The position numbers and the translations under genes are program-made. From Croceibacter atlanticus HTCC2559 (GTDB lineage Bacteria; Bacteroidota; Bacteroidia; Flavobacteriales; Flavobacteriaceae), in contig NC_014230.1 of NCBI RefSeq assembly GCF_000196315.1, forward strand, positions 1,446,001 through 1,510,000: a stretch of 64,000 nucleotides of DNA. Direction: 5' to 3'. The notes beneath the pieces are model-generated. The model did not search any database. It was given only the letters and a program-made list of their open reading frames with translations, and was not told where the DNA came from. Positions 583-38,899 of the stretch are shown here, piece by piece. Position 1 is the first letter of the stretch. Each line of letters starts with the position of its first letter.

Positions 583-1032
583 TTACGCCAACTTAGATTT
601 AACTATTGTAGAAATAGTTTTACCATCTGCTTTTCCAGAAAGTTGACCACTAGCCATTCCCATTACTTTACCCATATCTGCCATAGAAGATGCGCCAGTT
701 TTTGCAATGATATCTTCAACAACTTTAGCAACTTCCTCTTCACTCATTTGCTCTGGTAAAAAGCTCTCAATAACTTTTGCCTGCTCTAATTCTGGTGCTG
801 CAAGGTCTTCTCTTCCTTGTTCTAGATAAATAGCGGCACTGTCTTTACGTTGTTTAACTAATTTTTGAAGCATTTTTAATTCTTGTTCTTCAGAAATTTC
901 TTCTTTAGAACCTGTTTCGGTTTGCGCTAACAGCAATGCCGATTTTATTGCACGAAGACTGGTTAAAGCGTTTTGATCTTTAGCCTTCATAGCTTCTTTC
1001 ATCTTCGTCATTACATCTGCAGATAAGCTCAT
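583..1032 (-). CDS. GatB/YqeY domain-containing protein
   Basis: 149 residues, the usual length for stand-alone YqeY proteins, which resemble the C-terminal tRNA-binding tail of GatB (amidotransferase subunit B). The N-terminal helical half (about 1-95) is rich in Lys, Glu and Gln. The C-terminal half contains ESFLPEQMSEEEV and the Gly/Met-rich MADMGKVMGMASGQLSGKADG segment typical of the family. The exact function is unproven. It follows ftsZ, from which it is separated by a terminator, and precedes the tRNA-Arg gene. Confidence 0.85.
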   Translation of the reverse strand: MSLSADVMTKMKEAMKAKDQNALTSLRAIKSALLLAQTETGSKEEISEEQELKMLQKLVKQRKDSAAIYLEQGREDLAAPELEQAKVIESFLPEQMSEEEVAKVVEDIIAKTGASSMADMGKVMGMASGQLSGKADGKTISTIVKSKLA

Positions 1033-1072
1033 AATTGTTTGTTTTAGATAGTGCGAATATAAGAAATAGGAG

Positions 1073-1107
1073 TCAAAAAAAATCCGCTTCTTGTGGGAAG
1101 CGGATTG
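1073..1107 (-). terminator. Rho-independent terminator closing the ftsZ end of the dcw cluster
   Basis: On the minus strand the arms AATCCGCTTC and GAAGCGGATT pair perfectly around a CCACAA loop and are followed by an eight-base T-run. It lies about 20 bp after the ftsZ stop codon, so it marks the end of the division and cell wall operon and separates it from the YqeY gene. Confidence 0.9.
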
Positions 1108-1127
1108 TTATATAATTAAGCAAACGC

Positions 1128-3128
1128 TTAATCTACATTGTCATGAAGAAAAGAGTTGTTACTGCGTAACGTAATTTCATCTTCATCTGTATTTAACGTT
1201 GTTCTTGAAAGTTTAGAGTCTTCTGGCTTACGCTCTAAATCTACACCTGCACGTTTATAAGCAGGTTGTTTTTCTATCTCGTCTATATGGTTTGTACTAC
1301 TTCTAAATTTGTAGTTAAACTCTTTCATCTTTGCTCTACGTTCTGCAGCTCTATCTATAAGGTCTTTAGAAATAGGTTGATTAAAAGGGTCTTCATCATT
1401 ATCATTTGGTGTAGTCTCTGGCGCTTTAACGGTTTTTGTTTCCATTCTTAAAGACTCCTCAACTTCCTCTACTTTCTTAGCAACAGGCTTAGCTTGTTCT
1501 AGTTCATCTTCTAAATCCATATAGTCATCTAAACTATAGCGAGTAGTTCCTCCAGATGTTGTTTCTGTAACTGGAATAATCTCTATAGATTCTTTAACCT
1601 CAATATTTCTTGCATTATTAGTGTCTTCAGTTAAATTAAAAACTACAGGCTCTTCGTGCTCTTCTTCAGCTTCAGGTTGTGTTTGAGCTGTCTCTTTAGA
1701 AGTGTTTATAGGAAAATCAAAAGAAAATGTAAATTGATCTTCTTCTTCAGTTTCTGTTGTAGTTGTTGAGTTCTTTACTTCTTCAGCATCAACTACGCGC
1801 ATATCTTTTATGTGATCTGTAGTTTCAACTATAATGAACTCTTCATCTTCTATGTGATTAGGCGCATCTAGAACCTCTTTAACTTCTTCATAGATTACGT
1901 CTATGTTTTTAATGCTGTTGGTTGTCTGTACTAAATCCATTTTTGGTTTAGCAGGCTCTGTAACATCATCTTCTAAAACGTGAACTATTTTAGTTGGTTT
2001 TGGTGGTTCTGGAGTTTCATTTACAACGGGCCGAGGCATTGTTGGAGTGCTTGTTTTCTTTGCACTTAAATCCTGTACTGCTTTTTGCTCGTCTTCTAAT
2101 GTGTGTATTATTTTTTTTGTTTCTGTATTAGAGATTTCATTTTGCTGTTCTGCATTAAAACCGGTTGCAATTATTGTTACAGAAACTGCATCTTCTAAAC
2201 TGTCATCTTCACCAACACCCATAATAATGTTAGCACCATGACCAGCTTCGTTTTGAATGTGTTCGTTTATTTCTCCAATTTCATCTAATGTAATTTCTTC
2301 TGTTCCAGAAACGATAAGTAGCAATACGTTTTTAGCACCAGAAATTTTATTGTCATTTAATAACGGAGAGTCTAAAGCTTTAGTAATAGCATCTTGAGCT
2401 CTAGAACCGCCAGAAGCTGTTGCAGATCCCATAATAGCCGTACCACTATTGCTTAATACTGTTTTAGCATCGCGCAAGTCAATGTTTTGCGTATAGTGAT
2501 GTGTTATTACCTCTGCAATACCTCGAGCTGCGGTTGCTAAGACTTCGTCTGCTTTAGAGAATCCAGCTTTAAAGCCTAGGTTACCATAAACTTCTCTAAG
2601 CTTATTGTTATTTATAATTATTAATGAGTCTACATTTCGGCGTAATTTTTCGACACCAATTTGTGCTTGCTCATTTCTCATTTTACCTTCAAACTGAAAC
2701 GGGATAGTTACAATACCTACGGTAAGAATATCCATTTCTTTAGCTTGTTTGGCAATAATTGGAGCAGCACCTGTTCCTGTACCACCACCCATTCCAGCAG
2801 TGATAAACAGCATTTTTGTGTTAGTGTCCAACATTTGTTTTATATCCTCAAAGCTTTCGATTGCAGCTTGTTCACCAACTTCTGGGTTAGCTCCTGCACC
2901 CAAACCTTCAGTTAGGGTAACTCCTAATTGAATTTTATTTGGAATGCTGCTGTTTTCTAATGCTTGAGCATCTGTATTAAAGATTACAAAGTCTACACCT
3001 TTAATACCTTGTTGAAACATATGGTTTATGGCATTGCTACCACCACCACCTACACCGATGACCTTAATAACGTTCGATTGGTTTTTAGGCAAATCGAATG
3101 CAATGTTTTCGAATTCTGTGCTACTCAT
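1128..3128 (-). CDS. ftsZ: Cell division protein FtsZ
   Basis: Tubulin-like GTPase that polymerises into the Z-ring at midcell. The GTPase core spans about residues 18-330, with the Rossmann start VIGVGGGGSNA (24-33) and the tubulin signature GGGTGTG (114-120). The protein is 666 residues against about 380-390 in E. coli. The excess is an acidic, Thr/Glu-rich, low-complexity linker (about 345-610) of the kind seen in Flavobacteriia. The tail ends ITLRSNNSFLHDNVD instead of the classical FtsA/ZipA-binding peptide. It is the last gene of the dcw operon, 62 bp after ftsA, and is followed by a strong terminator. Confidence 0.97.
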   Translation of the reverse strand: MSSTEFENIAFDLPKNQSNVIKVIGVGGGGSNAINHMFQQGIKGVDFVIFNTDAQALENSSIPNKIQLGVTLTEGLGAGANPEVGEQAAIESFEDIKQMLDTNTKMLFITAGMGGGTGTGAAPIIAKQAKEMDILTVGIVTIPFQFEGKMRNEQAQIGVEKLRRNVDSLIIINNNKLREVYGNLGFKAGFSKADEVLATAARGIAEVITHHYTQNIDLRDAKTVLSNSGTAIMGSATASGGSRAQDAITKALDSPLLNDNKISGAKNVLLLIVSGTEEITLDEIGEINEHIQNEAGHGANIIMGVGEDDSLEDAVSVTIIATGFNAEQQNEISNTETKKIIHTLEDEQKAVQDLSAKKTSTPTMPRPVVNETPEPPKPTKIVHVLEDDVTEPAKPKMDLVQTTNSIKNIDVIYEEVKEVLDAPNHIEDEEFIIVETTDHIKDMRVVDAEEVKNSTTTTETEEEDQFTFSFDFPINTSKETAQTQPEAEEEHEEPVVFNLTEDTNNARNIEVKESIEIIPVTETTSGGTTRYSLDDYMDLEDELEQAKPVAKKVEEVEESLRMETKTVKAPETTPNDNDEDPFNQPISKDLIDRAAERRAKMKEFNYKFRSSTNHIDEIEKQPAYKRAGVDLERKPEDSKLSRTTLNTDEDEITLRSNNSFLHDNVD

Positions 3129-3189
3129 AATTCAAATTTTTATTGTGTTATACTCCTTTTACTGAGCTTTTTTTATTCTTTTTCTTTTT

Positions 3190-4533
3190 TTATTCTGCGT
3201 TGTCTAGAAAATCCTTGAATTTATCTACCCATTTGTCAAAGAAATTTTTACGTTCCTTATGTTCTCTAACCAATTGCTCTGTCTCTTCAGACATAGGTTG
3301 GTCTTCGTAGGTATCATCCTGAGACTCTTCAACAACTTCCTCTTTTGCTACGAGAGGTTTCTTTTTGTTTTCTTCTAAACTATTCATAACAAGACCTACT
3401 GCTGTTGCATATTGTGGGCTTGTTAACTCTTTTTCATTATCATGAGCTAAATGCTCATTAGGAAATCCAATTCTGGTATCCATACCGGTAATGTACTCCA
3501 CTAATTGCTTAAGATGTTTAAGCTGCGCGCCACCACCAGTTAAGACAATTCCTGCAATTAATTTTTTCTTTTGCTCTTCGTGTCCATAATTCTTTATTTC
3601 CAAATACGCTTGCTCTATGATCTCTACCACTCGAGCGTGAATAATTTTGGACAAGTTTTTTAATGTAATTTCTTTTGGTTCACGACCTCTTAATCCTGGT
3701 ATTGAAACTATTTCATTATCCTTATTCTCTCCTGGCCACGCAGAACCAAACTTTATTTTTAATAACTCAGCTTGCTTTTCAATAATTGAGCAACCTTCTT
3801 TTATATCTTCTGTAATCACATTGCCTCCAAAAGGAATTACAGCTGTATGACGTATGATACCATCTTTAAAAATTGCTAAATCTGTAGTACCACCACCTAT
3901 ATCTATAAGTGCAACACCAGCTTCTTTTTCTTCTTGACTTAGCACTGCATTAGCAGATGCAAGAGGCTCAAGAGTTACTGTACTAAGTTCTAATCCTGAA
4001 CTTTTTACGCAACGTCCAATATTTCTTATTGATGCTACTTGACCTACAACAACATGAAAATTAGCTTCCAGACGACCGCCATACATTCCTATTGGCTCTT
4101 TAACTTCTGCTTGCCCATCTATTTTAAACTCTTGTGGTAGTACGTGAATTATTTCTTCTCCAGGAAGCATAACCAATTTATGTACTTGCCCACAAAGCTT
4201 TTCAATATCTTTTGAGTCTATAACTTCATCTGCGTTAGGTCTTGTTATGTAATCACTATGCTGTAGGCTGCGTATATGTTGTCCTGCAATACCAACAACA
4301 ACATCTTCAATCTTAAGACCGCTATCTGCCTGTGCTTCATCTACAGCTTGTTGTATACTCTGTATGGTTTGGGTAATGTTATTTACCACACCACGATGTA
4401 CACCTAAACTTTTAGAACGCCCAATACCGAGTATCTCTAACTTGCCATACTCATTGTGCTTACCAATCATAGCTACAATCTTGGTTGTTCCTATATCTAA
4501 TCCTACTGCAATATTGTCTTTTTCCATCATCAT
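3190..4533 (-). CDS. ftsA: Cell division protein FtsA
   Basis: Actin-like ATPase that tethers FtsZ filaments to the inner membrane and recruits later division proteins. The phosphate-1 loop GLDIGTTKIVAMIG lies at residues 11-24, and the second ATPase motif LIDIGGGTTDLAIF near the middle. The last residues (NFFDKWVDKFKDFLDNAE) form an amphipathic helix, the expected membrane-targeting sequence. A charged linker of about 45 residues precedes it. 447 residues, somewhat longer than the E. coli protein. Three consecutive Met codons open the ORF, so the start could be 4533, 4530 or 4527. It lies between ftsQ and ftsZ, as usual. Confidence 0.96.
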   Translation of the reverse strand: MMMEKDNIAVGLDIGTTKIVAMIGKHNEYGKLEILGIGRSKSLGVHRGVVNNITQTIQSIQQAVDEAQADSGLKIEDVVVGIAGQHIRSLQHSDYITRPNADEVIDSKDIEKLCGQVHKLVMLPGEEIIHVLPQEFKIDGQAEVKEPIGMYGGRLEANFHVVVGQVASIRNIGRCVKSSGLELSTVTLEPLASANAVLSQEEKEAGVALIDIGGGTTDLAIFKDGIIRHTAVIPFGGNVITEDIKEGCSIIEKQAELLKIKFGSAWPGENKDNEIVSIPGLRGREPKEITLKNLSKIIHARVVEIIEQAYLEIKNYGHEEQKKKLIAGIVLTGGGAQLKHLKQLVEYITGMDTRIGFPNEHLAHDNEKELTSPQYATAVGLVMNSLEENKKKPLVAKEEVVEESQDDTYEDQPMSEETEQLVREHKERKNFFDKWVDKFKDFLDNAE

Positions 4534-4545
4534 TCTATTTGATGT

Positions 4546-5265
4546 CTATTCCTTTTTTGTGCAAACTACCTGACTGCCAAACTGTAAGTTAACCTTACTA
4601 TACAGGTTCAATTTTTTGTCTTTTAAAGCTTTTTGATAAAATGCTTTAAGATTATTTACTTTACGATCTATATCTTCTATGTGTCCAAAATCAACTTCAA
4701 AATCTACATCTCTTAATTGTAGGTTGTAAGTACCTTTAGATGTTTTCTGAATTTCTGTAACGTGCTTAGTTAAAAACACATCTTTAGTAATATACTTTAA
4801 CAACGGAAACAGAACATCTATATCTTTTTCTGAAATGTGATACACAAGTGGTACACGAGCAGAGTGAAATTTAGATAGCGGCATGGTCTTGCCTTCTTCA
4901 TCTATGTAAAACGCTTTTTGATGAGACACTCTTGCTATTGGCTTACGTTGTTTAACTGTTACACCAAGTGTCCCATTTACAGTGAGATACACATCAGAAT
5001 CGGCAATCATGTCGTGATTGTCTATTCTATTTTCTACGTCTTTCAAAGCTATTGCTTCTTTAGAAGCGTTCTTAACCTTTTCGTTATTTTGTATCAACAA
5101 TTTATTAACGATTTCATGGGTAACATATAGATTTTCGTCATCCACAAAATTTATAGCTACATTGTTGATTTTTCGATTGTTATTGCGTTTCTCAGCAAAG
5201 CCAAATAGAAAGACTACCAAGGCCAAAACCAAAAATGTTTTTATGTAGTTCCAGTTAATCTTCAT
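4546..5265 (-). CDS. ftsQ: Cell division protein FtsQ/DivIB-like
   Basis: 239-residue bitopic membrane protein. A short cytoplasmic N-terminus is followed by one membrane segment (about residues 9-24, TFLVLALVVFLFGFA) and a periplasmic domain that would form the FtsQ/POTRA-like fold (DVYLTVNGTLGVTVKQRKPIARV). FtsQ links FtsL/FtsB-type proteins to the septal peptidoglycan synthase. Sequence conservation of FtsQ is low, so the call rests on topology, length and its place between murC and ftsA. The start overlaps the murC stop by 11 bp, indicating coupled translation. Confidence 0.88.
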   Translation of the reverse strand: MKINWNYIKTFLVLALVVFLFGFAEKRNNNRKINNVAINFVDDENLYVTHEIVNKLLIQNNEKVKNASKEAIALKDVENRIDNHDMIADSDVYLTVNGTLGVTVKQRKPIARVSHQKAFYIDEEGKTMPLSKFHSARVPLVYHISEKDIDVLFPLLKYITKDVFLTKHVTEIQKTSKGTYNLQLRDVDFEVDFGHIEDIDRKVNNLKAFYQKALKDKKLNLYSKVNLQFGSQVVCTKKE

Positions 5266-6610
5266 TACGCATTGCTTTAGTGACCTTTAAAATTTCTTCA
5301 CCTATGTCTCCAGCACCCATCATTGCTACAACTTCTGCAGATGTTGCTTTAACCTCTTTTATCAGATCTACCTTTCCAATTATTTTTTTGTTTGGATTAG
5401 CTATAAGTTTAAGTAATGCTTGAGACGTAATACCATCTATGGGTTCTTCTCTAGCAGGATATATATCTAATAGAACTACACTGTCAAACTTTGACAAGCT
5501 TTCTGCAAATTCATTTATAAAATCTCTTGTTCTGCTAAATAAATGTGGTTGGAAGACAGCTAATACCTTCTTATTTGGGTGCATTTCTCTTACCGCTTGA
5601 TTAACGGCATTTATTTCTGAAGGATGATGTGCATAGTCATCAATAATTGTTAGTTTCTCAGACTTTATTCTGTATGTAAAACGCCTTTGCACACCTTTAA
5701 ATGAGGCTAAAGCTTTGGTGAGACTGTTGCTTGGGGAAACAAAAGGTGCTGCTAATGCCAAAGCTGTAACCGCATTTTGTAGGTTGTGTTTTCCGGGTAA
5801 ATTAAACTCAAACCCTTTTATAATATTGTCTTGTAGTCTTAAGTTAAAACGATAAGAACCATCTTTAATTGTGATGTCTTCTGCTGTTATGTCTGCGTTG
5901 CCATCTACACTAATTGATATCCCTTTAAGTGGCAAGCCTTTAGCTAGAAAGACATTTGATTTATCTTTTACTAAATCTGCAAAGCCTTTAAATGTATGTG
6001 ATAACTCTTCTGCGCTACCATAGATATCTAAGTGATCTGCATCCATAGATGTTATTGCAATCTTATTTGGTGAAAGATGCATAAAAGATCTATCAAATTC
6101 ATCGGCTTCAACAACTATGGCATCTAAACCATCATTTATAAAATTAGTGTTGTAGTTTTCTGAAACACCTCCTAAAAATGCTGTAATATTTAATCCAGAA
6201 TCTTTTAAAAGATGGGCTAGGATAGAGGTTGTTGTTGTTTTACCGTGTGTTCCTGCAACGGCTAAGGTATTTTGGTTCTTTGTAACATCTCCTAAAACCT
6301 CTGCACGCTTCTTTACACTAAAGTTTTGTTCTTTAAAATAAACAAATTGCTCCTGAGATTTTGGGATAGCTGGAGTGTAAACAATTTGTGTAGTTTCCTT
6401 ATTTAAAAAGCCTTTTGGTACTGCAGATAATGATGCATTAAAAACTACAGGAATACCTTCGTTTTCTAAGGCTTTAGTCATACTTGACGGAGTTTTGTCG
6501 TATCCAGACACAGCAAACCCTCTTGCTTTAAAATAGCGCGCAAGACCACTCATACCAATACCACCGATACCGATAAAGAAATAATGTGTTATGTTGTTTT
6601 GAGTGTTCAT
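5255..6610 (-). CDS. murC: UDP-N-acetylmuramate--L-alanine ligase
   Basis: Cytoplasmic Mur ligase that adds L-Ala to UDP-MurNAc, the first amino acid of the peptidoglycan stem peptide. It shows the N-terminal UDP-binding motif GIGGIGMSGLA (14-24), the ATP-binding loop GTHGKTTT (120-127), and the C-terminal domain with DDYAHHPSEI. At 451 residues it is of normal length. It is 18 bp from murG and overlaps ftsQ by 11 bp, so it is part of the same transcript. Confidence 0.97.
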   Translation of the reverse strand: MNTQNNITHYFFIGIGGIGMSGLARYFKARGFAVSGYDKTPSSMTKALENEGIPVVFNASLSAVPKGFLNKETTQIVYTPAIPKSQEQFVYFKEQNFSVKKRAEVLGDVTKNQNTLAVAGTHGKTTTTSILAHLLKDSGLNITAFLGGVSENYNTNFINDGLDAIVVEADEFDRSFMHLSPNKIAITSMDADHLDIYGSAEELSHTFKGFADLVKDKSNVFLAKGLPLKGISISVDGNADITAEDITIKDGSYRFNLRLQDNIIKGFEFNLPGKHNLQNAVTALALAAPFVSPSNSLTKALASFKGVQRRFTYRIKSEKLTIIDDYAHHPSEINAVNQAVREMHPNKKVLAVFQPHLFSRTRDFINEFAESLSKFDSVVLLDIYPAREEPIDGITSQALLKLIANPNKKIIGKVDLIKEVKATSAEVVAMMGAGDIGEEILKVTKAMRNED

Positions 6611-32026: not shown

Positions 32027-32713
32027 ATGTCATATACATTTCAAGATGCAGCACAAGATTTAGAACCTGTTGCAGAAGAAAAAACACTTTCTCTACTAGA
32101 CTTATTGTTTAGTGGAGGTATGGCAGGAAGTATTATAATAGGCGTCTTATTTGTCCTCTTATTTGCTGCTGTCTATATATACTTTGAGCGTTTATTTGCA
32201 ATTAAAGCAGCCTCTAAAACAGATAAAAATTTTATGCACCAAATACGTGATAACGTTGCCGGTGGTAACATTGAAGCTGCTAAAATAAGATGTGCTCAAG
32301 AAAACTCTCCAGTAGCAAGATTAACAGCTAAAGGAATTTCGAGAATAGGAAGTCCTTTAGAAGATATTAATACAGCAATAGAAAATGCTGGAAGGCTTGA
32401 GGTTTACAAATTAGAGAAAAATGTAAGTGTTCTCGCAACTATTGCAGGAGCTGCACCTATGATTGGATTTTTAGGTACGGTAATAGGTATGGTTTTAGCA
32501 TTTCACCAATTAGCAACTAGCAGTGGTCAAGCAGAAATGGGTAACCTTGCAGAAGGAATTTATACCGCTATGACAACTACAGTAGCTGGTCTTATTGTTG
32601 GTATTATAGCGTATATTGGATATAACCACTTAGTGGTAAAAACAGATAAAGTTGTACACCAGATGGAAGCAACAGCTGTTGATTTCCTTGACCTGCTAAA
32701 CGAACCTGCTTAA
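32027..32713 (+). CDS. exbB: MotA/TolQ/ExbB proton channel family protein
   Basis: 228-residue inner-membrane protein with three membrane segments (about 34-55, 138-160, 178-200). The conserved region ATIAGAAPMIGFLGTVIGMVLAF-like (quoted to 20: ATIAGAAPMIGFLGTVIGMV) lies in the second segment. It forms the proton channel that drives TonB. It is followed one base later by exbD and then a TonB-type protein, so ExbB is preferred over TolQ. Confidence 0.92.
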   Translation: MSYTFQDAAQDLEPVAEEKTLSLLDLLFSGGMAGSIIIGVLFVLLFAAVYIYFERLFAIKAASKTDKNFMHQIRDNVAGGNIEAAKIRCAQENSPVARLTAKGISRIGSPLEDINTAIENAGRLEVYKLEKNVSVLATIAGAAPMIGFLGTVIGMVLAFHQLATSSGQAEMGNLAEGIYTAMTTTVAGLIVGIIAYIGYNHLVVKTDKVVHQMEATAVDFLDLLNEPA

Positions 32714-32714
32714 T

Positions 32715-33113
32715 ATGAATTTACGCGGAAGAAATAAAGTAAGTCCAGAATTCAGTATGTCGTCTATGACAGATATTGTGTTCTTGCTATTAGTGTTCTT
32801 TTTATTAACCAGTCCACAGATAACACCAGAAGCTTTAGATTTAATCTTGCCTAAAGCTAAAGGTAAAACTACAAACGTTCAGAATGTATCTGTAAGCATT
32901 AATAAGGAACTTCAAATTTATGTAGATAAGGAACGTGTTACTACAAGTAACTTAGAACAAACCTTAAAATCTAGATTAAGTGGTGTAGAGGATCCTACAA
33001 TTATATTAAGAGCAGAAGAAGGTGTGCCTATTGAAAAGGCAGTTAATGTTATGGATATTGCAAACCGAAACAAATACAAAATTGTTTTGGCTGTTAGACC
33101 AAATGAAAACTAG
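32715..33113 (+). CDS. exbD: Biopolymer transporter ExbD
   Basis: 132-residue protein with one N-terminal membrane helix (about 20-38). It holds the essential Asp in SMTDIVFLLLVFFLLTSP (Asp20) and a periplasmic domain with VSINKELQIYVDKERV. ExbD is the partner of ExbB in the proton channel. It follows exbB by one base. Confidence 0.93.
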   Translation: MNLRGRNKVSPEFSMSSMTDIVFLLLVFFLLTSPQITPEALDLILPKAKGKTTNVQNVSVSINKELQIYVDKERVTTSNLEQTLKSRLSGVEDPTIILRAEEGVPIEKAVNVMDIANRNKYKIVLAVRPNEN

Positions 33114-33124
33114 TTAAAAGACGT

Positions 33125-33991
33125 ATGAGCTTTATAGAAACAAAACATGAAAAGAAATCTTTGGCAATTACTGTCATAATTCATGTTGCGCTCATATTAC
33201 TGTTGTTATTTTTCGGGTTTACTTATCTAGATCCGCCACCAGAAAACGGTATAGCGGTTAATTTTGGAACGAGTAGTGTAGGTCAAGGAGATGTGCAACC
33301 TACAGAACCTGTAAAATCTGCCCCTAAAAACACGTCACAACCAACACCGCCAGAGCCTCAACAAAAAACTCCAGAAATTAAGGAAGAAGTTGTAACTCAA
33401 GATAACTCAGATGCTCCAGTAATCGATAAAACTGAAGATAAGAAAGAGGTTAAGAAAGTTGAGAAGCCGGTAGAAAAACCAAAAAAACAAACTCCAGTTG
33501 AAAAACCTGTAGAAAAGGTAGAACCAGTTAAGAAACCAGATCCAAAGCCAGATAAGTCTACTACAGATGCATTAAGTAGTATCTTAAATGGACCTAAGAA
33601 AGATGGTACTCAAAATGGAGGAGAAGGTAATGACAATCAAGCTGGAGATAAAGGCGATCCTAATGGAGACCCTAATGCTAAATCTTATTATGGCAATGGT
33701 AAGGGTTTAGATGGCGATGGTAATTATAGGTTAGGTGGTCGTAAAGCCCTAAATAAGAAAAAATTTGTTCAAGATTGTAATGAGTCTGGTATTGTTGTGG
33801 TTAAGATTGAAGTAGATAGAAACGGTAATGTTATAAAAGCAACGCCAGGTGTAAAAGGAACTACAAACAGTGCTTCTTGCCTGACAGAGCCTGCTAAACG
33901 TGCTGCGCTTGCAACGCGTTTTAATAGCGATAATAAAGCACCTACTACTCAGGTAGGAACTATTATTTATGAGTTTAAGCTAAGTGAGTAA
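33125..33991 (+). CDS. tonB: TonB-like energy transducer
   Basis: 288 residues. One N-terminal membrane helix (about 14-32, ITVIIHVALILLLLFFGF) is followed by a Pro/Lys/Glu-rich linker of about 120 residues with repeated VEKPVEK. A Gly/Asp-rich stretch (about 165-200) leads to a C-terminal domain (about 205-288) with VVVKIEVDRNGNVIKATPG and TTQVGTIIYEFKLSE. It would span the periplasm and energise outer-membrane receptors. It closes the exbB-exbD-tonB operon. Confidence 0.88.
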   Translation: MSFIETKHEKKSLAITVIIHVALILLLLFFGFTYLDPPPENGIAVNFGTSSVGQGDVQPTEPVKSAPKNTSQPTPPEPQQKTPEIKEEVVTQDNSDAPVIDKTEDKKEVKKVEKPVEKPKKQTPVEKPVEKVEPVKKPDPKPDKSTTDALSSILNGPKKDGTQNGGEGNDNQAGDKGDPNGDPNAKSYYGNGKGLDGDGNYRLGGRKALNKKKFVQDCNESGIVVVKIEVDRNGNVIKATPGVKGTTNSASCLTEPAKRAALATRFNSDNKAPTTQVGTIIYEFKLSE

Positions 33992-34064
33992 ATAACTACT
34001 GTTTTTTAGTTGATCAAATTTAATTCTTTAATATTTTTCTTTCAATTTTAAGTGTTTAAAGTGG

Positions 34065-34091
34065 TTGGTAATTAGTCGCGTTGTATCTTTG
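34065..34091 (+). promoter_or_regulatory. Promoter of the copper-related cluster
   Basis: TTG at 34065-34067 and TATCTTTG at 34084-34091, 16 bp apart, close to the Bacteroidota consensus. It lies 16 bp before the GTG start at 34108, so it should drive the small protein, mbnP-like, mbnH-like and barrel genes. Confidence 0.65.
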
Positions 34092-34107
34092 CTAAAATCA
34101 CATTTAG

Positions 34108-34494
34108 GTGCGCAATAAAGCATTTGTTTTTATCCTCTTTTTATGCTTTGCTATTAAGCCGATGTATTATATGGGTCAGTACTCATATTATCAGCTTAAT
34201 ATAGATTATATTATTGAAACCTATTGTGTAAATAAAGACAAGCCAGTATTGCAATGTAATGGTAAATGTCACCTCTCTAAACAACTTGATTTAGCATCAA
34301 CAACAGATTCAGAGTCTAATGAAGGTGCCATCAATTTAGTTTCAGAGTCTTTTTTTCCAGTCTACTTTCAATCCAATGACAATGTAACTTTTAATGATTC
34401 TAATTTTTCATTTAAAAGTACTTTTAATCATTATTATTTAAACAGATACATCTTCGAAAACAAAAAGAGACTGTTTAGACCTCCAATTTCATAA
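34108..34494 (+). CDS. Small membrane-associated Cys protein upstream of the MbnP gene
   Basis: 128 residues from a GTG start. A hydrophobic N-terminus (about 5-22, AFVFILFLCFAIKPMYYM) serves as signal or anchor, followed by a segment with three Cys: ETYCVNKDKPVLQCNGKCHL. The rest is polar and ends with a basic tail. No enzyme domain was recognised. The C-x9-C-x3-CH arrangement suggests binding of a metal such as copper, and its place at the head of the MbnP/MbnH cluster agrees, but this is inference. Confidence 0.6.
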   Translation: MRNKAFVFILFLCFAIKPMYYMGQYSYYQLNIDYIIETYCVNKDKPVLQCNGKCHLSKQLDLASTTDSESNEGAINLVSESFFPVYFQSNDNVTFNDSNFSFKSTFNHYYLNRYIFENKKRLFRPPIS

Positions 34495-34570
34495 GTTTTA
34501 AAATACAACTGTAATTTACAAGGCTTTGGGCGCTTGCCATTAATAGTGCCTTTATTTTAAAACTAAACAC

Positions 34571-35368
34571 ATGAAAAATTTAAAAATAGCATTACTCTTA
34601 ATGCTAAGTATCTCTATTATATCTTGTTCTGATGACGATGATTCCTCAGAAAATCTTTCAGGACAAACAGGAAATTTAATTATAAAATTTGATAACGGTT
34701 ATGGCGATCAAGATTTCATTTTTGGTACAGAATACCAAAAATCTAATGATGAGTCTTTTAAATTAGAAACGCTAAAATACATAGTAAGTAACATAAGCTT
34801 AGAAGATGAAATAGGTAATGTTTACGAATACCCATTTAACGAAAATATTTTTATTGTAGATGAAGCAAATGCAAATGCAGCTGGTGAAATTTGGATTATG
34901 TTAGAAGATATTCCTGCAGCAAATTACACAAATGTATCATTTGGGGTTGGTGTAGATCAAGATCGTTATGCAATGGGTGCAGAAGGGCAAGGTGAATTTT
35001 TAGAAACTGCAGATGAAGCTGGTATGCTTTGGTCTTGGGCAACAGGATTTAAATTTATAAGAATGGATGGCTCTTTTTCTTCAAGTTCTATTACAAATGA
35101 TGATTTAAATGTTCATATGGGTAGCGTTGGTACATCTTTAGATAACTATAGAGCAGTGTCTTTATCTTTCCCTAATACTGTATTGGTAAGAACAGAGACG
35201 CAACCAGAAATTCACATAAAGTCTGACATTTCTAAAGTGTTTGATGGTTCTACTTCTGTTAATTTAATGGATGGTTATAATCAAGTTCACGTAGATCCAG
35301 AAACAACTGCTGTAGTTGCCAATAACATCATGACGATGTTTGAGGTGCATCACGTTCATAATAATTAA
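34571..35368 (+). CDS. MbnP family protein (putative copper-binding lipoprotein)
   Basis: 265-residue lipoprotein: signal MKNLKIALLLMLSISIISC, lipobox Cys19, followed by an Asp/Ser-rich linker. The domain begins NLIIKFDNGYGDQDF and contains LETLKYIVSNISLED, GVGVDQDRYAMGA and the aromatic stretch MLWSWATGFKFIRMDG, all typical of the MbnP family. The end has His-rich EVHHVHNN, a possible metal site. In characterised cases MbnP works with the di-haem protein MbnH in periplasmic copper binding and tryptophan oxidation. MbnH-like and barrel genes follow. Confidence 0.85.
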   Translation: MKNLKIALLLMLSISIISCSDDDDSSENLSGQTGNLIIKFDNGYGDQDFIFGTEYQKSNDESFKLETLKYIVSNISLEDEIGNVYEYPFNENIFIVDEANANAAGEIWIMLEDIPAANYTNVSFGVGVDQDRYAMGAEGQGEFLETADEAGMLWSWATGFKFIRMDGSFSSSSITNDDLNVHMGSVGTSLDNYRAVSLSFPNTVLVRTETQPEIHIKSDISKVFDGSTSVNLMDGYNQVHVDPETTAVVANNIMTMFEVHHVHNN

Positions 35369-35383
35369 TACTGTATTGTTTGT

Positions 35384-35468
35384 GTAGCTAAATAATTTTT
35401 TGATTTAAGCTACTTCACATTTTTAGTAATGGTAATGCTGTGCGTATTTATTTAAGTACAGCATTGCC
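35384..35468 (+). promoter_or_regulatory. Two consecutive hairpins between the mbnP-like and mbnH-like genes
   Basis: Hairpin 1 pairs GTAGCTAAAT (35384-35393) with ATTTAAGCTAC (35403-35413), one-base bulge. Hairpin 2 pairs GGTAATGCTGT (35431-35441) with ACAGCATTGCC (35458-35468), one G-T pair, 16-nt loop. Neither has a T-run directly after it, so these are not clear terminators. They may control mRNA processing or stability within the operon. Confidence 0.45.
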
Positions 35469-35525
35469 AAATTATAAATTTACTTGAATGTGAAACAAGT
35501 TATATGGAACAAAACAGTTTATGTT

Positions 35526-36566
35526 ATGAAGTATTTATGTATGCTAATTATAGTTCTGCTATTTTCATCTTGTGCTAAAGATGATGCTATAGAGTATAGT
35601 CCTACACCAATAAATTTAGAAATACCATCTAATTTTCCGCCATTAGTTTATGCTATTGAAAATAATCCTTTAACAGAAGAAGGTTTTCAGTTAGGGAAGT
35701 CTTTGTTTTATGAAGGAAAATTGTCATCAAATAATTCTATTCCGTGTGCATTTTGTCACGAACAAGCATTTGCATTTACTCATCACGGCCACAATGTTAG
35801 TCATGGTGTAGATGGTGGTATTGGAATAAGAAACTCTCAGCCTATTCAAAACTTAGTATTTCAATCTGAATTTACCTGGGATGGTGCAGCTACTCATTTA
35901 GATTTACAACCTATAATACCTATTACTAGTGAGGTTGAAATGAATGAAAGCTTAAGCAATGTTGTTGAAAAACTAAAAGCAGACGCTTATTACAGGTCTG
36001 CTTTTGCCTTGGCTTTTGAAGAAGGAGAGATCAATGGAGAAAATTTGCTTAAAGCACTATCGCAATTCATGGTGATGATGGTTTCAACCAACTCTAAGTA
36101 TGATAGGATGATACGACAAGAAGGTAACGAAACCTTTTCAGTTTTAGAAAATGATGGCTTGGTAACGTTCCAACAAAAATGCACTTCTTGTCACGCTACA
36201 GATTTATTTACAGACCAATCATACAGAAATAATGGGCTTTCGGTAAATCCACAAGTAGATGATAAAGGCAGGTATAACGTTTTTCAAAACCCAGATGATC
36301 TGTATAAGTTTAAAGTTCCTAGTTTAAGAAATGTGGAGCATTCTTTTCCTTATATGCACGACGGTCGTTTTGAAACTTTAGAAGCTGTTGTAAATTTTTA
36401 TGATAATGGCCTTACAGATAACGGCAATGTAGATCCTTTGTTAGTTTCTGAAAATGGCAGTTTGGGAATACCACTTACAGATTACGAAAAGCAAAGTTTA
36501 GTAGCTTTTTTAAAAACACTTACAGATAATGAATTTTTACAAAATGAAAGATTTTCAGATTTCTAA
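35526..36566 (+). CDS. Di-haem cytochrome c peroxidase family protein (MbnH-like)
   Basis: 346 residues from the ATG at 35526, which gives a lipoprotein signal MKYLCMLIIVLLFSSC (Cys16). A TTG at 35484 would add 14 residues. Two c-type haem motifs are seen: CAFCH (74-78) and CTSCH (219-223). Also MHDGRFETLEAVVNFY near the end, typical of the CcpA/MauG superfamily. MbnH proteins form a high-valent di-iron state and oxidise a Trp in MbnP. Adjacency to the MbnP gene favours MbnH over a hydrogen-peroxide-scavenging CcpA. The next gene overlaps it by 23 bp. Confidence 0.85.
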   Translation: MKYLCMLIIVLLFSSCAKDDAIEYSPTPINLEIPSNFPPLVYAIENNPLTEEGFQLGKSLFYEGKLSSNNSIPCAFCHEQAFAFTHHGHNVSHGVDGGIGIRNSQPIQNLVFQSEFTWDGAATHLDLQPIIPITSEVEMNESLSNVVEKLKADAYYRSAFALAFEEGEINGENLLKALSQFMVMMVSTNSKYDRMIRQEGNETFSVLENDGLVTFQQKCTSCHATDLFTDQSYRNNGLSVNPQVDDKGRYNVFQNPDDLYKFKVPSLRNVEHSFPYMHDGRFETLEAVVNFYDNGLTDNGNVDPLLVSENGSLGIPLTDYEKQSLVAFLKTLTDNEFLQNERFSDF

Positions 36567-37569
36567 AATATCAATACTACTTTTAGTTTTTACTCTAAGT
36601 ATTGTAACACAACTCAGAGCTAAAGAATTATGTAAAGGCAGAAAAACGACTATTCCGAAATTTGGATTAACACTACTAGAAGAAGACTGCGATTTATGTG
36701 GGTGTACCACTAGTAGTGGTAGTTCTGCATTTGGAGATTTAAGCATGTCTAATTTTATTGGTGTGAGATACATTTATCAGCAATACGAATCTCGCAATGG
36801 TATATTTGAAAACTCGCCAACTAGTGACGAGCATTTTAATACGTATCAAATTTGGGGTAGGGTGCCAATTAGTAAAAATATATTTTTAAATGCTGTGATA
36901 CCATATCAAGATTTAAGACGAAATTTTGATGATAGAAGCGAGCACTTAAATGGTTTAGGAGATGTGAATATTACAGGATTTTACCAATTTAAATTTTATA
37001 AAAAAGAAGAAAACACTAACGATAATGAGGAAAATTATGCGTGGTCTGATACTAGAGAGTTATCAAATCATACCTTAAATATTGGTTTGGGAGTAAAGCT
37101 GCCAACAGGTGAGTTTGAAGAAGAATTAGCAGATAAAGTAAATCCAGGTTTTCAAGTTGGAACAGGTAGTTGGGATGTATATCCTATTGTAATGTATGGA
37201 TATTCAAATAACAATTTAGGTTTTACTACAACCATCGCCTATTATTTTAAATCGGAAAATAAGAACGAATATAAATTTGGAAACCAATTAAGCTATTCAA
37301 CAACTATGTATTATACGCTTTTAAGGAATGAAAAGGCTATTAAGCCATTTCTGGGTCTATCTGGAGATGTTTTTGATTCAATAGAACAATTTGGGGAGAC
37401 TTTAGTAAATACAGATGGCTCAATATTTAATGGAGCAGTTGGTATGGAGTATGCAACAGGCAAAATATTATTAGGCGCAAAATATACACAGCCGTTATAT
37501 CAAGATTTATTTAATGGAAATGTTAAGTCTAAATCTCAAATAGCATTATATCTTAATTTTTCAATTTAA
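36544..37569 (+). CDS. Outer-membrane beta-barrel protein with N-terminal Cys cluster (putative transporter)
   Basis: 341 residues from the ATG at 36544. Signal peptide about 1-24 (ISKISILLLVFTLSIVTQ...). The mature N-terminus has a Cys cluster EEDCDLCGCTTSSGS (C-x2-C-x-C) and an earlier Cys in KELCKGRK. The remainder is alternating beta strands (FIGVRYIYQQYES, LNIGLGVKLPTGEFE) ending in LYLNFSI, as for outer-membrane barrels. Overlap with the MbnH-like gene by 23 bp implies co-translation. A role in copper or metal passage is inferred from the cluster, not shown. Confidence 0.7.
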   Translation: MKDFQISKISILLLVFTLSIVTQLRAKELCKGRKTTIPKFGLTLLEEDCDLCGCTTSSGSSAFGDLSMSNFIGVRYIYQQYESRNGIFENSPTSDEHFNTYQIWGRVPISKNIFLNAVIPYQDLRRNFDDRSEHLNGLGDVNITGFYQFKFYKKEENTNDNEENYAWSDTRELSNHTLNIGLGVKLPTGEFEEELADKVNPGFQVGTGSWDVYPIVMYGYSNNNLGFTTTIAYYFKSENKNEYKFGNQLSYSTTMYYTLLRNEKAIKPFLGLSGDVFDSIEQFGETLVNTDGSIFNGAVGMEYATGKILLGAKYTQPLYQDLFNGNVKSKSQIALYLNFSI

Positions 37570-37574
37570 TTAAT

Positions 37575-37617
37575 AAAGGTGTTACTGTAAGTTTTAAGTT
37601 TACAGTACACCTTTTTT
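37575..37617. terminator. Bidirectional terminator between the barrel gene and amt
   Basis: Arms AAAGGTGTTACTGTAA (37575-37590) and TTACAGTACACCTTT (37600-37614) pair with one bulged base. T-runs exist on both strands, and it lies between convergent genes. Confidence 0.85.
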
Positions 37618-38899
37618 ATATTCTCTCACCATGTTGCGAATTGTCTAGACCGCGTTCTTCTTGATCTTCCCTTACTCTAACTGGTAAAACTAAATCTACA
37701 ATTTTATAGATAAGCAAACTACCTCCGAAAACACCTATAGAAACGAGTATTAAGGCAATTAGATGAAACATAAAAGTTTCTGTCTCTCCATAAATTAAAC
37801 CCACATCCTTTGCAAGAACTCCTGTTAAAATCATACCGACAATACCTCCAACTCCATGACTAGGAAATACATCTAGTGTGTCATCAATATTACATTGTTT
37901 CTGTACTTGAATAGCAATATTACTTATAACCGCAGCAAAGAAACCAATGAAAATACTTTGACCTAAATTAACAAAACCTGCCGCTGGTGTTATAGCAACT
38001 AAACCTACAATTGCTCCAATACATGCACCAATAGCAGACATTTTTTTATTAAGCATGCGGTCTAAAAAAATCCAAGTAATCATACTTGTTGCAGAAGCCA
38101 AGTTTGTGTTTGCAAATGCTATTACAGCATCTATGTTAGCACCTAGCGCAGAGCCGGCATTAAAGCCAAACCAACCAAACCAAAGTAATCCTGTTCCTAA
38201 TATTACAAATGGGATGTTTGCTGGCTCTTCAATCATTTTTTTGCGTTTTCCTAAATATATTGCACCGGCAAGTGCAGCTAATCCAGCAGAAAGGTGGACT
38301 ACTGTACCTCCAGCAAAATCTAACACTCCCCAATTCCTCAGCAAACCTTCTGGATGCCAAGTCATATGTGCTAATGGACAGTAAATAAATAATGAAAATA
38401 ATATCATTATTAAAATGTAGCTTCTAAACCTTATGCGCTCTGCAAAACTTCCAGTTATTAATGCAGGAGCAATGATTGCAAATTTTAATTGAAATAATGC
38501 GAACAATAAAAATGGTATTGTTGATGAAAAGTCAGGGTTGGGTGAAAGCGTAACGTTATTAAAATTAAAGTAAGTAAAAGGATTACCTATAATACCATGG
38601 TAGCTCTCTCCAAATGCTAGGCTAAAGCCTATAAACACCCAAAGAACACTCATCACTCCTAAAGCAACAAAACTTTGTAACATTGTGGAGATAACATTTT
38701 TTCTATTGACTAAACCTCCGTAAAAAAAAGCTAATCCTGGCGTCATTAATAATACAAATGCACTAGCTACAATCATCCAAGCAGTATCTCCAGTATCAAT
38801 ACTGTAATTAGTAGATTCAATAAATGTGTATTCAGCACTACAGATTAGACTAATAATGACAATTACAGTCAATATTATAAAGTTTAATTTTTTACTCAT
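37616..38899 (-). CDS. amt: Ammonium transporter
   Basis: 427 residues. N-terminal signal-like segment, then 11 membrane segments of the Amt/Rh fold: AWMIVASAFVLLMTPGLAFFYGG, then HMTWHPEGLL, FAGGTVVHLSAGLAAL (conserved His), and the late FPSHGVGGIVGMI with the second pore His. It imports NH4+/NH3. No glnK/PII gene is adjacent, which is less usual. A perfect dyad lies 38 bp upstream. Confidence 0.94.
   Translation of the reverse strand: MSKKLNFIILTVIVIISLICSAEYTFIESTNYSIDTGDTAWMIVASAFVLLMTPGLAFFYGGLVNRKNVISTMLQSFVALGVMSVLWVFIGFSLAFGESYHGIIGNPFTYFNFNNVTLSPNPDFSSTIPFLLFALFQLKFAIIAPALITGSFAERIRFRSYILIMILFSLFIYCPLAHMTWHPEGLLRNWGVLDFAGGTVVHLSAGLAALAGAIYLGKRKKMIEEPANIPFVILGTGLLWFGWFGFNAGSALGANIDAVIAFANTNLASATSMITWIFLDRMLNKKMSAIGACIGAIVGLVAITPAAGFVNLGQSIFIGFFAAVISNIAIQVQKQCNIDDTLDVFPSHGVGGIVGMILTGVLAKDVGLIYGETETFMFHLIALILVSIGVFGGSLLIYKIVDLVLPVRVREDQEERGLDNSQHGERI

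Follow-up and report, generated by a model that had tools for sequence, protein, structure and literature searches.

A 64,000-nucleotide stretch of the Croceibacter atlanticus HTCC2559 genome (contig NC_014230.1, positions 1,446,001 to 1,510,000; this whole stretch is called the window) carries a run of four genes that begins with a small open reading frame (ORF) and continues with genes for an MbnP-family lipoprotein, an MbnH-like di-haem protein, and an outer-membrane beta-barrel (Table 1). An initial annotation, made from the letters alone, had placed all four ORFs correctly and read the group as a possible copper system. Its C-x9-C-x3-CH motif in the small protein is indeed there, as C40-x9-C50-x3-C54-H, and so is its overlap between the last two genes. 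It overlooked a Pro-Pro pair at the C terminus of the small protein and an RNA stem anchored on that ORF's stop codon. Taken with these elements, the copper reading gains from the co-occurrence of the genes and from a stronger copper context, and the first gene changes its part: rather than handling metal, it is quite probably a copper-responsive, cis-acting leader of the CutF/CruR kind, belonging to a distinct Bacteroidota family.

Table 1. Positions of the operon's genes and proposed control elements in the window
Feature	Position	Strand	Remarks
Bacteroidota-type -7 promoter box TATCTTTG	34084-34091	+	sequence match upstream of leader
Small leader ORF, 128 amino acids	34108-34494	+	GTG start directly after in-frame TAG
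Codons C40 to H55, proposed copper-sensing motif	34225-34272	+	three Cys invariant in 115/115
Pro-Pro codons CCT CCA, then two sense codons and stop (RPPIS-stop)	34480-34485	+	proposed ribosome pause site
Stem 5' arm AGTTTTAAAATA	34494-34505	+	begins on the leader's stop codon
Stem 3' arm TATTTTAAAACT	34553-34564	+	last paired base at -7 from mbnP start
MbnP-family lipoprotein gene mbnP	34571-35368	+	PF20243 match; WSW; lipid Cys then acidic SDDDD
MbnH-like di-haem MauG-family lipoprotein gene	35526-36566	+	PF03150; two CxxCH
Outer-membrane beta-barrel gene	36544-37569	+	overlaps mbnH; CDLCGC at residues 49-54

The leader consists of an N-terminal hydrophobic helix, the Cys motif, a weakly conserved middle, and the RPPIS-stop end. 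With its own sequence as query, relatives turn up at an expectation value (E) up to 0.1 in 97 of the 149 genomes that make up the first set, all from the window organism's family; phylum-wide, a leader profile matches in 119 of 296 genomes. The relatives followed further were 117 ORFs with E up to 1.6e-4, from 89 genomes and 112 stretches. In 114 of the 117, Pro-Pro is followed by 2-14 residues and a stop, the exceptions being two ORFs cut by a contig end and one with an early stop; in 105 of the 114 the pair stands 2-5 residues before the stop. L062 and L149 have no readable CxxxC (contig end and early stop, respectively), L118 is cut by a contig end, and the alignment of 113 leaders excludes L118 and L126. 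Within that alignment mean column identity is 27%, and the sole invariant residues, kept in 113/113, are C40, C50, C54, P125, and P126. G52, K53, and L56 are nearly invariant, and the residue after the third Cys is mostly Tyr, His or Gln. The last Cys is separated from the first Pro by 64-74 positions (63-73 residues between; mean 68.4, standard deviation 2.3). All four Pro codons are used at the Pro-Pro, and selection therefore appears to act on the amino acids rather than the codons. Because a metal-like motif and a C-terminal Pro-Pro are both fixed, at a fixed distance, the leader resembles a nascent-chain sensor.

The Pro-Pro recurs in other samples. It lies within the last 15 residues in 77/77 leaders from a second set of barrel operons that partly overlaps the first, and within 14 residues of the end at 19 of 20 loci from 20 other families, where the Cys pattern is present in 18 of the 20 leaders. 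A chance C terminus is ruled out by a control in which Pro-Pro fell within the last 16 residues of 1 of 358 other proteins of the same loci. The window's leader has no Pfam or NCBIfam family above curated cut-off. Assignment to a known metal protein was rejected, since the best Pfam family among the 113 members is DUF6769 (three members, E 0.0022), and in NCBIfam one match of a member is to a CzcI-like protein (E 0.0077). A direct search for DUF6769 in 60 genomes gave none over cut-off, with weak matches away from the leader places. These weak matches, which lie in genomes of the same family, in frames of 144-157 amino acids and below the cut-off (e.g. G016:C147:4871-5275 and G042:C8:51173-51586), might be further leader-like small proteins. 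Separately, two leader ORFs lie close together in L066, L072, L079, L108, and L134, with an unknown ORF of about 145 amino acids between them in L072, L079, and L108.

The gene order is conserved. The barrel as query matches in 22 of the 149 first-set genomes and strongly in 21; the weak match, in G018, is a different barrel type beside a leader. MbnH adjoins the barrel in all 21 strong-match genomes. The initial annotation had staked its proposal in part on co-occurrence of the flanking genes with MbnP and MbnH across Flavobacteriaceae, and MbnP and the small gene indeed stand upstream of the barrel in each of the 20 of these 21 genomes where an unbroken contig allows the order to be assessed. 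The second set comprises the best 80 of 308 barrel relatives in named genomes and overlaps the first by nine contigs, apparently those of G063, G029, G017, G010, G015, G090, G109, G097, and G076. These best 80 include Ulvibacter, Mangrovimonas, Lacinutrix, Winogradskyella, Polaribacter, Tenacibaculum, and Flavobacterium, and show MbnH in 79 (L261 gives no match), MbnP in 78, and the small gene in 77; the three loci that lack it (L192, L200, and L256) meet a contig end upstream. Of the 20 distant loci, L271, L273, and L280 have the full order in other families of the phylum, and at L268, L270, and L283 the barrel model alone matched. Judged by this order, which is beyond chance, the four genes are a true, conserved operon.

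In the window, mbnP starts 76 nucleotides after the leader, and the gap between them holds the stem. Its two arms are reverse complements in the window; in relatives the arm sequences differ yet still pair. Among 59 non-redundant leader-mbnP gaps (an 80% filter, which lessens relatedness among gaps and leaves some), the mean anchored stem is 6.05 compared with 4.47 after re-pairing arms among species, and 0 of 20,000 permutations were as high. Among the 23 stems with at least 7 pairs, two or more Watson-Crick types occur at each of pair positions 4-12 and 14, counted from the stop. For the anchored-stem test, the covariation, and the controls, the 3' end was searched only at -3 to -12; in the controls and the duplex-energy test below, starts of genes other than mbnP are those of the longest open frame. 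When the 3' end may fall anywhere within 34 nucleotides, 30 of 75 gaps contain a stem of at least 8, compared with 11.5% of non-cognate pairs; relative to the mbnP start, 28 of these 30 stems have their end at -4 to -11 (three of the 77 loci in this test, L194, L231, and L261, are without an mbnP start). The anchored test is flat for MbnP-MbnH gaps (p 0.26, n=49) and for other gene pairs (p 0.53, n=128), which rules out a general trait of AT-rich gaps, and it gives p 0.0006 for leader gaps to non-MbnP genes (n=77). A duplex-energy test of 104 leader gaps is positive but weaker (mean rank 0.37 compared with 0.5 expected).

Other identities for this RNA were rejected. A scan of 33950-37700 gave a single terminator-like site, within the barrel gene, and shuffled sequence gives at least as many; a search for known RNA families returned two matches only, to microRNA models and below gathering score. 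Within the stem, at window 34518-34552, 8/8 aligned close relatives retain the segment ACAAGGC...GCTTGCC, which has an inner hairpin, and change in the outer arms. Bacteroidetes reportedly do without Shine-Dalgarno sequences, with initiation tuned by mRNA structure.

Two characterized copper leaders offer precedents. CruR of Bordetella pertussis (bp2923, DUF2946) is an upstream ORF with CXXC and RAPP, 45 residues between the two, and a 162-nucleotide gap with Rho termination (PMC9426467). Its homologs, mostly in Proteobacteria, head TonB receptor, PepSY, and some MbnPH-like operons, so that MbnPH-like genes behind copper leaders had already been noted (PMC9426467). Like CruR, the present leader is the small product of a first gene that carries a Cys motif and has Pro-Pro at its C terminus, and export is predicted for both. 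It differs in having C-x9-C-x3-C (CxxxC) and xPP, 63-73 residues between them, and, in many mbnP operons, a stop-anchored stem. DUF2946 is absent among the 25 of 36 families listed for the 113 leaders at E up to 1, and a direct search for it (PF11162) in 60 genomes gave none over cut-off and two weak matches away from leader places.

CutF of Rhodobacter capsulatus has CxxxC, a Pro-rich end at a spacing of 45, and, before the next gene, a stem that hides the Shine-Dalgarno sequence; its target is a multicopper oxidase (PMC9973294). The present leader shares with it the CxxxC, a Pro-Pro within 15 C-terminal residues, a length under 150 amino acids, and a stem to the next gene, and its predicted N-terminal helix may correspond to the export signal of CutF, whereas the masking of a Shine-Dalgarno sequence and the spacing of 45 set CutF apart. 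Under the limits used for CutF-like proteins (fewer than 150 amino acids, Pro-Pro within 15 residues of the end, a gene within 1,000 nucleotides), the window's leader falls inside the group, with 128 amino acids, two residues after Pro-Pro, and same-strand mbnP next (PMC9973294). List D of CutF-like proteins counts 5,334, 19% of them from Bacteroidota, and may already include the present family, of which the accessible text gives no description (PMC9973294). A survey of RAPP/RGPP upstream ORFs reports C-terminal Pro-Pro leaders before metal genes, a likeness to the present family, and places Bacteroidota among the groups without copper-related ones (PMC12992588); RAPP, RGPP or RAGP occurs in 0/113 of the present leaders. 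Another survey describes Pro-ending leaders before secDF in Bacteroidota (PMC10987492). In the open-licence literature, no published description of this candidate copper leader in Bacteroidota was found.

From these elements a working scheme can be proposed. The leader would be translated right behind its promoter and inserted via the Sec pathway by its N-terminal helix. With the ribosome at Pro-Pro, the Cys triad, 64-74 positions away, would have just emerged from the translocon into the periplasm. In the absence of copper the ribosome would pause on the Pro-Pro and cover the stop codon and first bases of the 5' arm, as deduced from usual ribosome footprints, so that the stem could not close and the mbnP start would stay free. 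With copper present, the triad would bind the metal, the pause would be released, and the ribosome would leave; the stem would then close across the bases immediately ahead of the mbnP start, with a fall in translation. That copper represses, with the genes on in copper shortage, seems likely by analogy, because of the CruR precedent and the nature of the downstream genes. The stem, for its part, is somewhat favored as the main output in this operon.

A copper leader could instead act as CruR does, through Rho-dependent termination in the gap, with the stem secondary. Such a variant of the output, compatible with the leader assignment itself, is somewhat unlikely here. It would suit the many gaps that lack a stop-anchored stem, most of all those that lead to genes other than mbnP. 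Against it stand the covarying stem of the mbnP class, the placement of nearly all long stems (28/30) at -4 to -11 of the start codon in that class, and the length of many leader-mbnP gaps, a mere 57-82 nucleotides. This and the alternatives below overlap, and their probabilities are not meant to add up to a whole.

Leader position and the genes that follow bear on the signal. The box TAnnTTTG, which we take to be the Bacteroidota -7 consensus, occurs within 80 nucleotides upstream of 86 of 114 small ORFs, the window's included, compared with 292 of 5619 downstream control windows. Behind the leader, just one of 95 gaps (up to 200 nucleotides) has it. Because the box precedes the leader and almost never lies in the gap behind it, the transcript most likely has the small ORF as its first gene. 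The end of the box is only 4-5 nucleotides away from the chosen start codon in 37 of the 86 box-bearing loci (e.g. L076, L080, and L100), and these leader mRNAs may be leaderless. The first gene after the leader is TonB-size in 49 loci, MbnP-size in 20, YtkA-size in 23, barrel-size in 14, and other in 7. Types were assigned by profile scans of representative loci only, which revealed TonB receptors (one followed by PepSY_TM), YtkA-like proteins (some below cut-off), and PF13557 barrels. The leader directly heads cydA-cydB, for cytochrome bd, at L133:2649-5064 (Pfam), and in L130 a leader, a barrel, and a gene of 146 amino acids precede cydA-cydB by sequence likeness. Cytochrome bd is an oxidase that is not known to contain copper. 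TonB receptors, PepSY, YtkA-like proteins, and bd oxidase behind the leader thus strengthen the copper context of the family, and the set of leader-headed genes fits copper limitation.

Upstream of many leaders lies a second sequence motif. TGAY-N4..6-RTCA, presumably an FNR/CRP-like palindrome, is found within 110 nucleotides upstream of 42 of 114 leaders (L041-L152) compared with 91 of 4821 control windows; sorted by next gene, it precedes 27/49 TonB-size, 12/23 YtkA-size, and 3/20 MbnP-size genes. The distribution is a hint that oxygen or nitrogen oxides, too, control many of the copper TonB operons. It could also be taken to mean that the leader senses another metal, redox or export state instead of copper, as might the capacity of Cys pairs to read redox. 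Among CutF-like families, some have Ni/Co-linked members (PMC9973294). A non-copper signal is nonetheless unlikely, given that MbnP, bd oxidase, and YtkA-like genes downstream indicate copper.

For the proteins of the operon, a copper link is suggested by context. MbnP of the window matches PF20243 at E 8e-45 (153.5 bits against a cut-off of 27) and TIGR04052 at E 4e-14 with 52.6 of 140 bits, below the curated equivalog cut-off. Its partner matches PF03150 (CCP_MauG) at E 3.9e-50 and TIGR04039 at E 2.3e-63 with 214.3 of 362.85 bits, again below the equivalog cut-off, and is therefore called MbnH-like. The initial annotation's naming of the pair thus stands at family level, backed by WSW and two CxxCH. 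The longest ORF of the MbnH-like gene is 35484-36566, and the ATG at 35526 is preferred as the start because it gives a lipoprotein signal. Acidic residues after the lipid Cys are a surface-export signal of Bacteroidota lipoproteins, and their presence in both MbnP and MbnH suggests surface lipoproteins. Hallmarks of MbnP proper are a Trp oxidised to kynurenine and bound copper. Pairs of MbnP and MbnH are already published as spread far beyond methanobactin producers, with roles unknown (PMC3621798). The window's pair resembles them as an adjacent WxW lipoprotein and di-haem MauG-like enzyme (PF20243, PF03150) and differs in scoring below both NCBIfam equivalog cut-offs and in being joined to a leader and a CxxCxC barrel. 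Just before mbnH, at window 35431-35468, lies a hairpin of 11 pairs (one G-U, by eye).

The barrel has no Pfam family above cut-off. The initial annotation had put CxxCxC at its mature N terminus; the CDLCGC is present, near that end rather than at it, and C49, C52, and C54 are invariant in 20/20 aligned sequences, window included. In the AlphaFold2 model (predicted template modelling score, pTM, 0.74), the Cys segment falls within a low-confidence stretch, 26-64. Foldseek gives FapF and the COG4313 channel as best solved folds, with 12-14% identity to the best 20 structures. Besides this likeness of fold, a distant hidden Markov model match links the protein to the PF13557-type (COG4313) barrels behind other leaders, and the CxxCxC near the mature N terminus distinguishes it from FapF and PF13557 channels. 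The barrel might serve as a channel through which copper, or a ligand of copper, passes. In L057, L063, L068, L074, L085, L115, L128, L130, and others, the leader is followed by a second barrel type, which has a RPDGHAPISVMGDH-like start and is distantly related to the window's barrel.

That MbnP and MbnH instead perform a non-copper task, such as surface redox or protein modification, with the barrel moving something else, is about as improbable as the non-copper signal. The pairs are widespread and of unknown role, and the nearest solved folds of the barrel, FapF and the COG4313 channel, would allow it; against it, the leader family is tied to copper, as are its other targets, and WxW is kept in 77/78 MbnP of the named set. 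Weakest is the proposal that the first gene makes a functional protein with a structural Pro-Pro, either a periplasmic copper chaperone or a Cys protein of the membrane, from which MbnP or the barrel would receive copper: its three invariant Cys followed mostly by Tyr, His or Gln, its full-length open frame, and its place next to copper-type genes in typed loci agree with such a role, but conservation between Cys motif and Pro-Pro is low though their distance is nearly fixed, no confident fold follows the helix that AlphaFold2 predicts confidently at residues 2-30 (pTM 0.33), the gene comes first before unrelated products, and a covarying stem is anchored on its stop codon.

Several observations weigh against the copper-leader assignment or its proposed mechanism. 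The precedents diverge from it in part: CruR acts by Rho termination and not through a stem, CutF has the opposite sign, with copper turning expression on, and the C terminus of CutF alone did not stall in a LepB assay (PMC9973294). The residue before Pro-Pro in the present leaders may be H, P, K, R, Q, E or Y, which, with RAPP, RGPP, and RAGP all absent, makes arrest strength uncertain. Instead of a cleaved signal, the N-terminal helix might be a signal anchor, and two distant leaders, L283 and L287, are those in which the Cys pattern was not found. The stem is not general, as an anchored stem of 7 or more is present in only 23/59 leader-mbnP gaps and 10/77 leader gaps to other genes, and only 17 of 104 leader gaps fall in the best 5% of the duplex-energy test. 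Nor is the leader: among 78 MbnP loci of the family, 51 have no barrel and no leader match within 6 kb with the single-sequence query, including the second MbnP-MbnH pair of the window's own genome. Of the remainder, 20 have the small gene and barrel, and seven have the small gene 800-6000 nucleotides away and no barrel; these seven stand behind a leader, a YtkA-like gene, and a gene of TonB-receptor size (one locus, L064, was typed by profile, with weak matches).

If the copper-leader assignment holds, the operon would be a copper-scavenging surface module of MbnP and MbnH-like lipoproteins and an outer-membrane channel, with expression set by the leader. A broader proposal, to which about an even chance can be given, is that a large class of copper-sensing arrest leaders, distinct from DUF2946 and RAPP peptides, is particular to Bacteroidota. 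In mbnP operons these leaders would use an AU-rich stem from the leader's stop codon to just before the next start, and they would govern both copper scavenging and a swap to cytochrome bd. A stem switch of this type would suit a phylum without Shine-Dalgarno sequences, in that pausing at Pro-Pro would directly keep the next start open. The scavenging targets would be the MbnP/MbnH/CxxCxC barrel operon and TonB receptors, and the swap would be to the copper-free oxidase. The family would thereby provide a likely sensor and regulator for copper acquisition genes across a phylum for which the recent survey reports no copper-related RAPP/RGPP leaders (PMC12992588). It would also tie MbnP/MbnH outside methanobactin operons to a copper response, name the conserved CxxCxC channel as their likely partner, and define residues to test: three Cys, two Pro, and two 12-nucleotide arms.

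Two neighborhoods complete the description. Directly upstream of the operon and on the same strand (window 32027-33991) are an ExbB-type gene (PF01618) and two ORFs that by eye resemble ExbD and TonB; the TonB-resembling ORF, last of the three, matched no Pfam family. Elsewhere in the genome, the second MbnP-MbnH pair (L153:7357-9214; G000:C1 near 1007458), which shows no leader or barrel match, is followed by Fe-S_biosyn (SufA-like) and SUFBD (SufB-like) genes.

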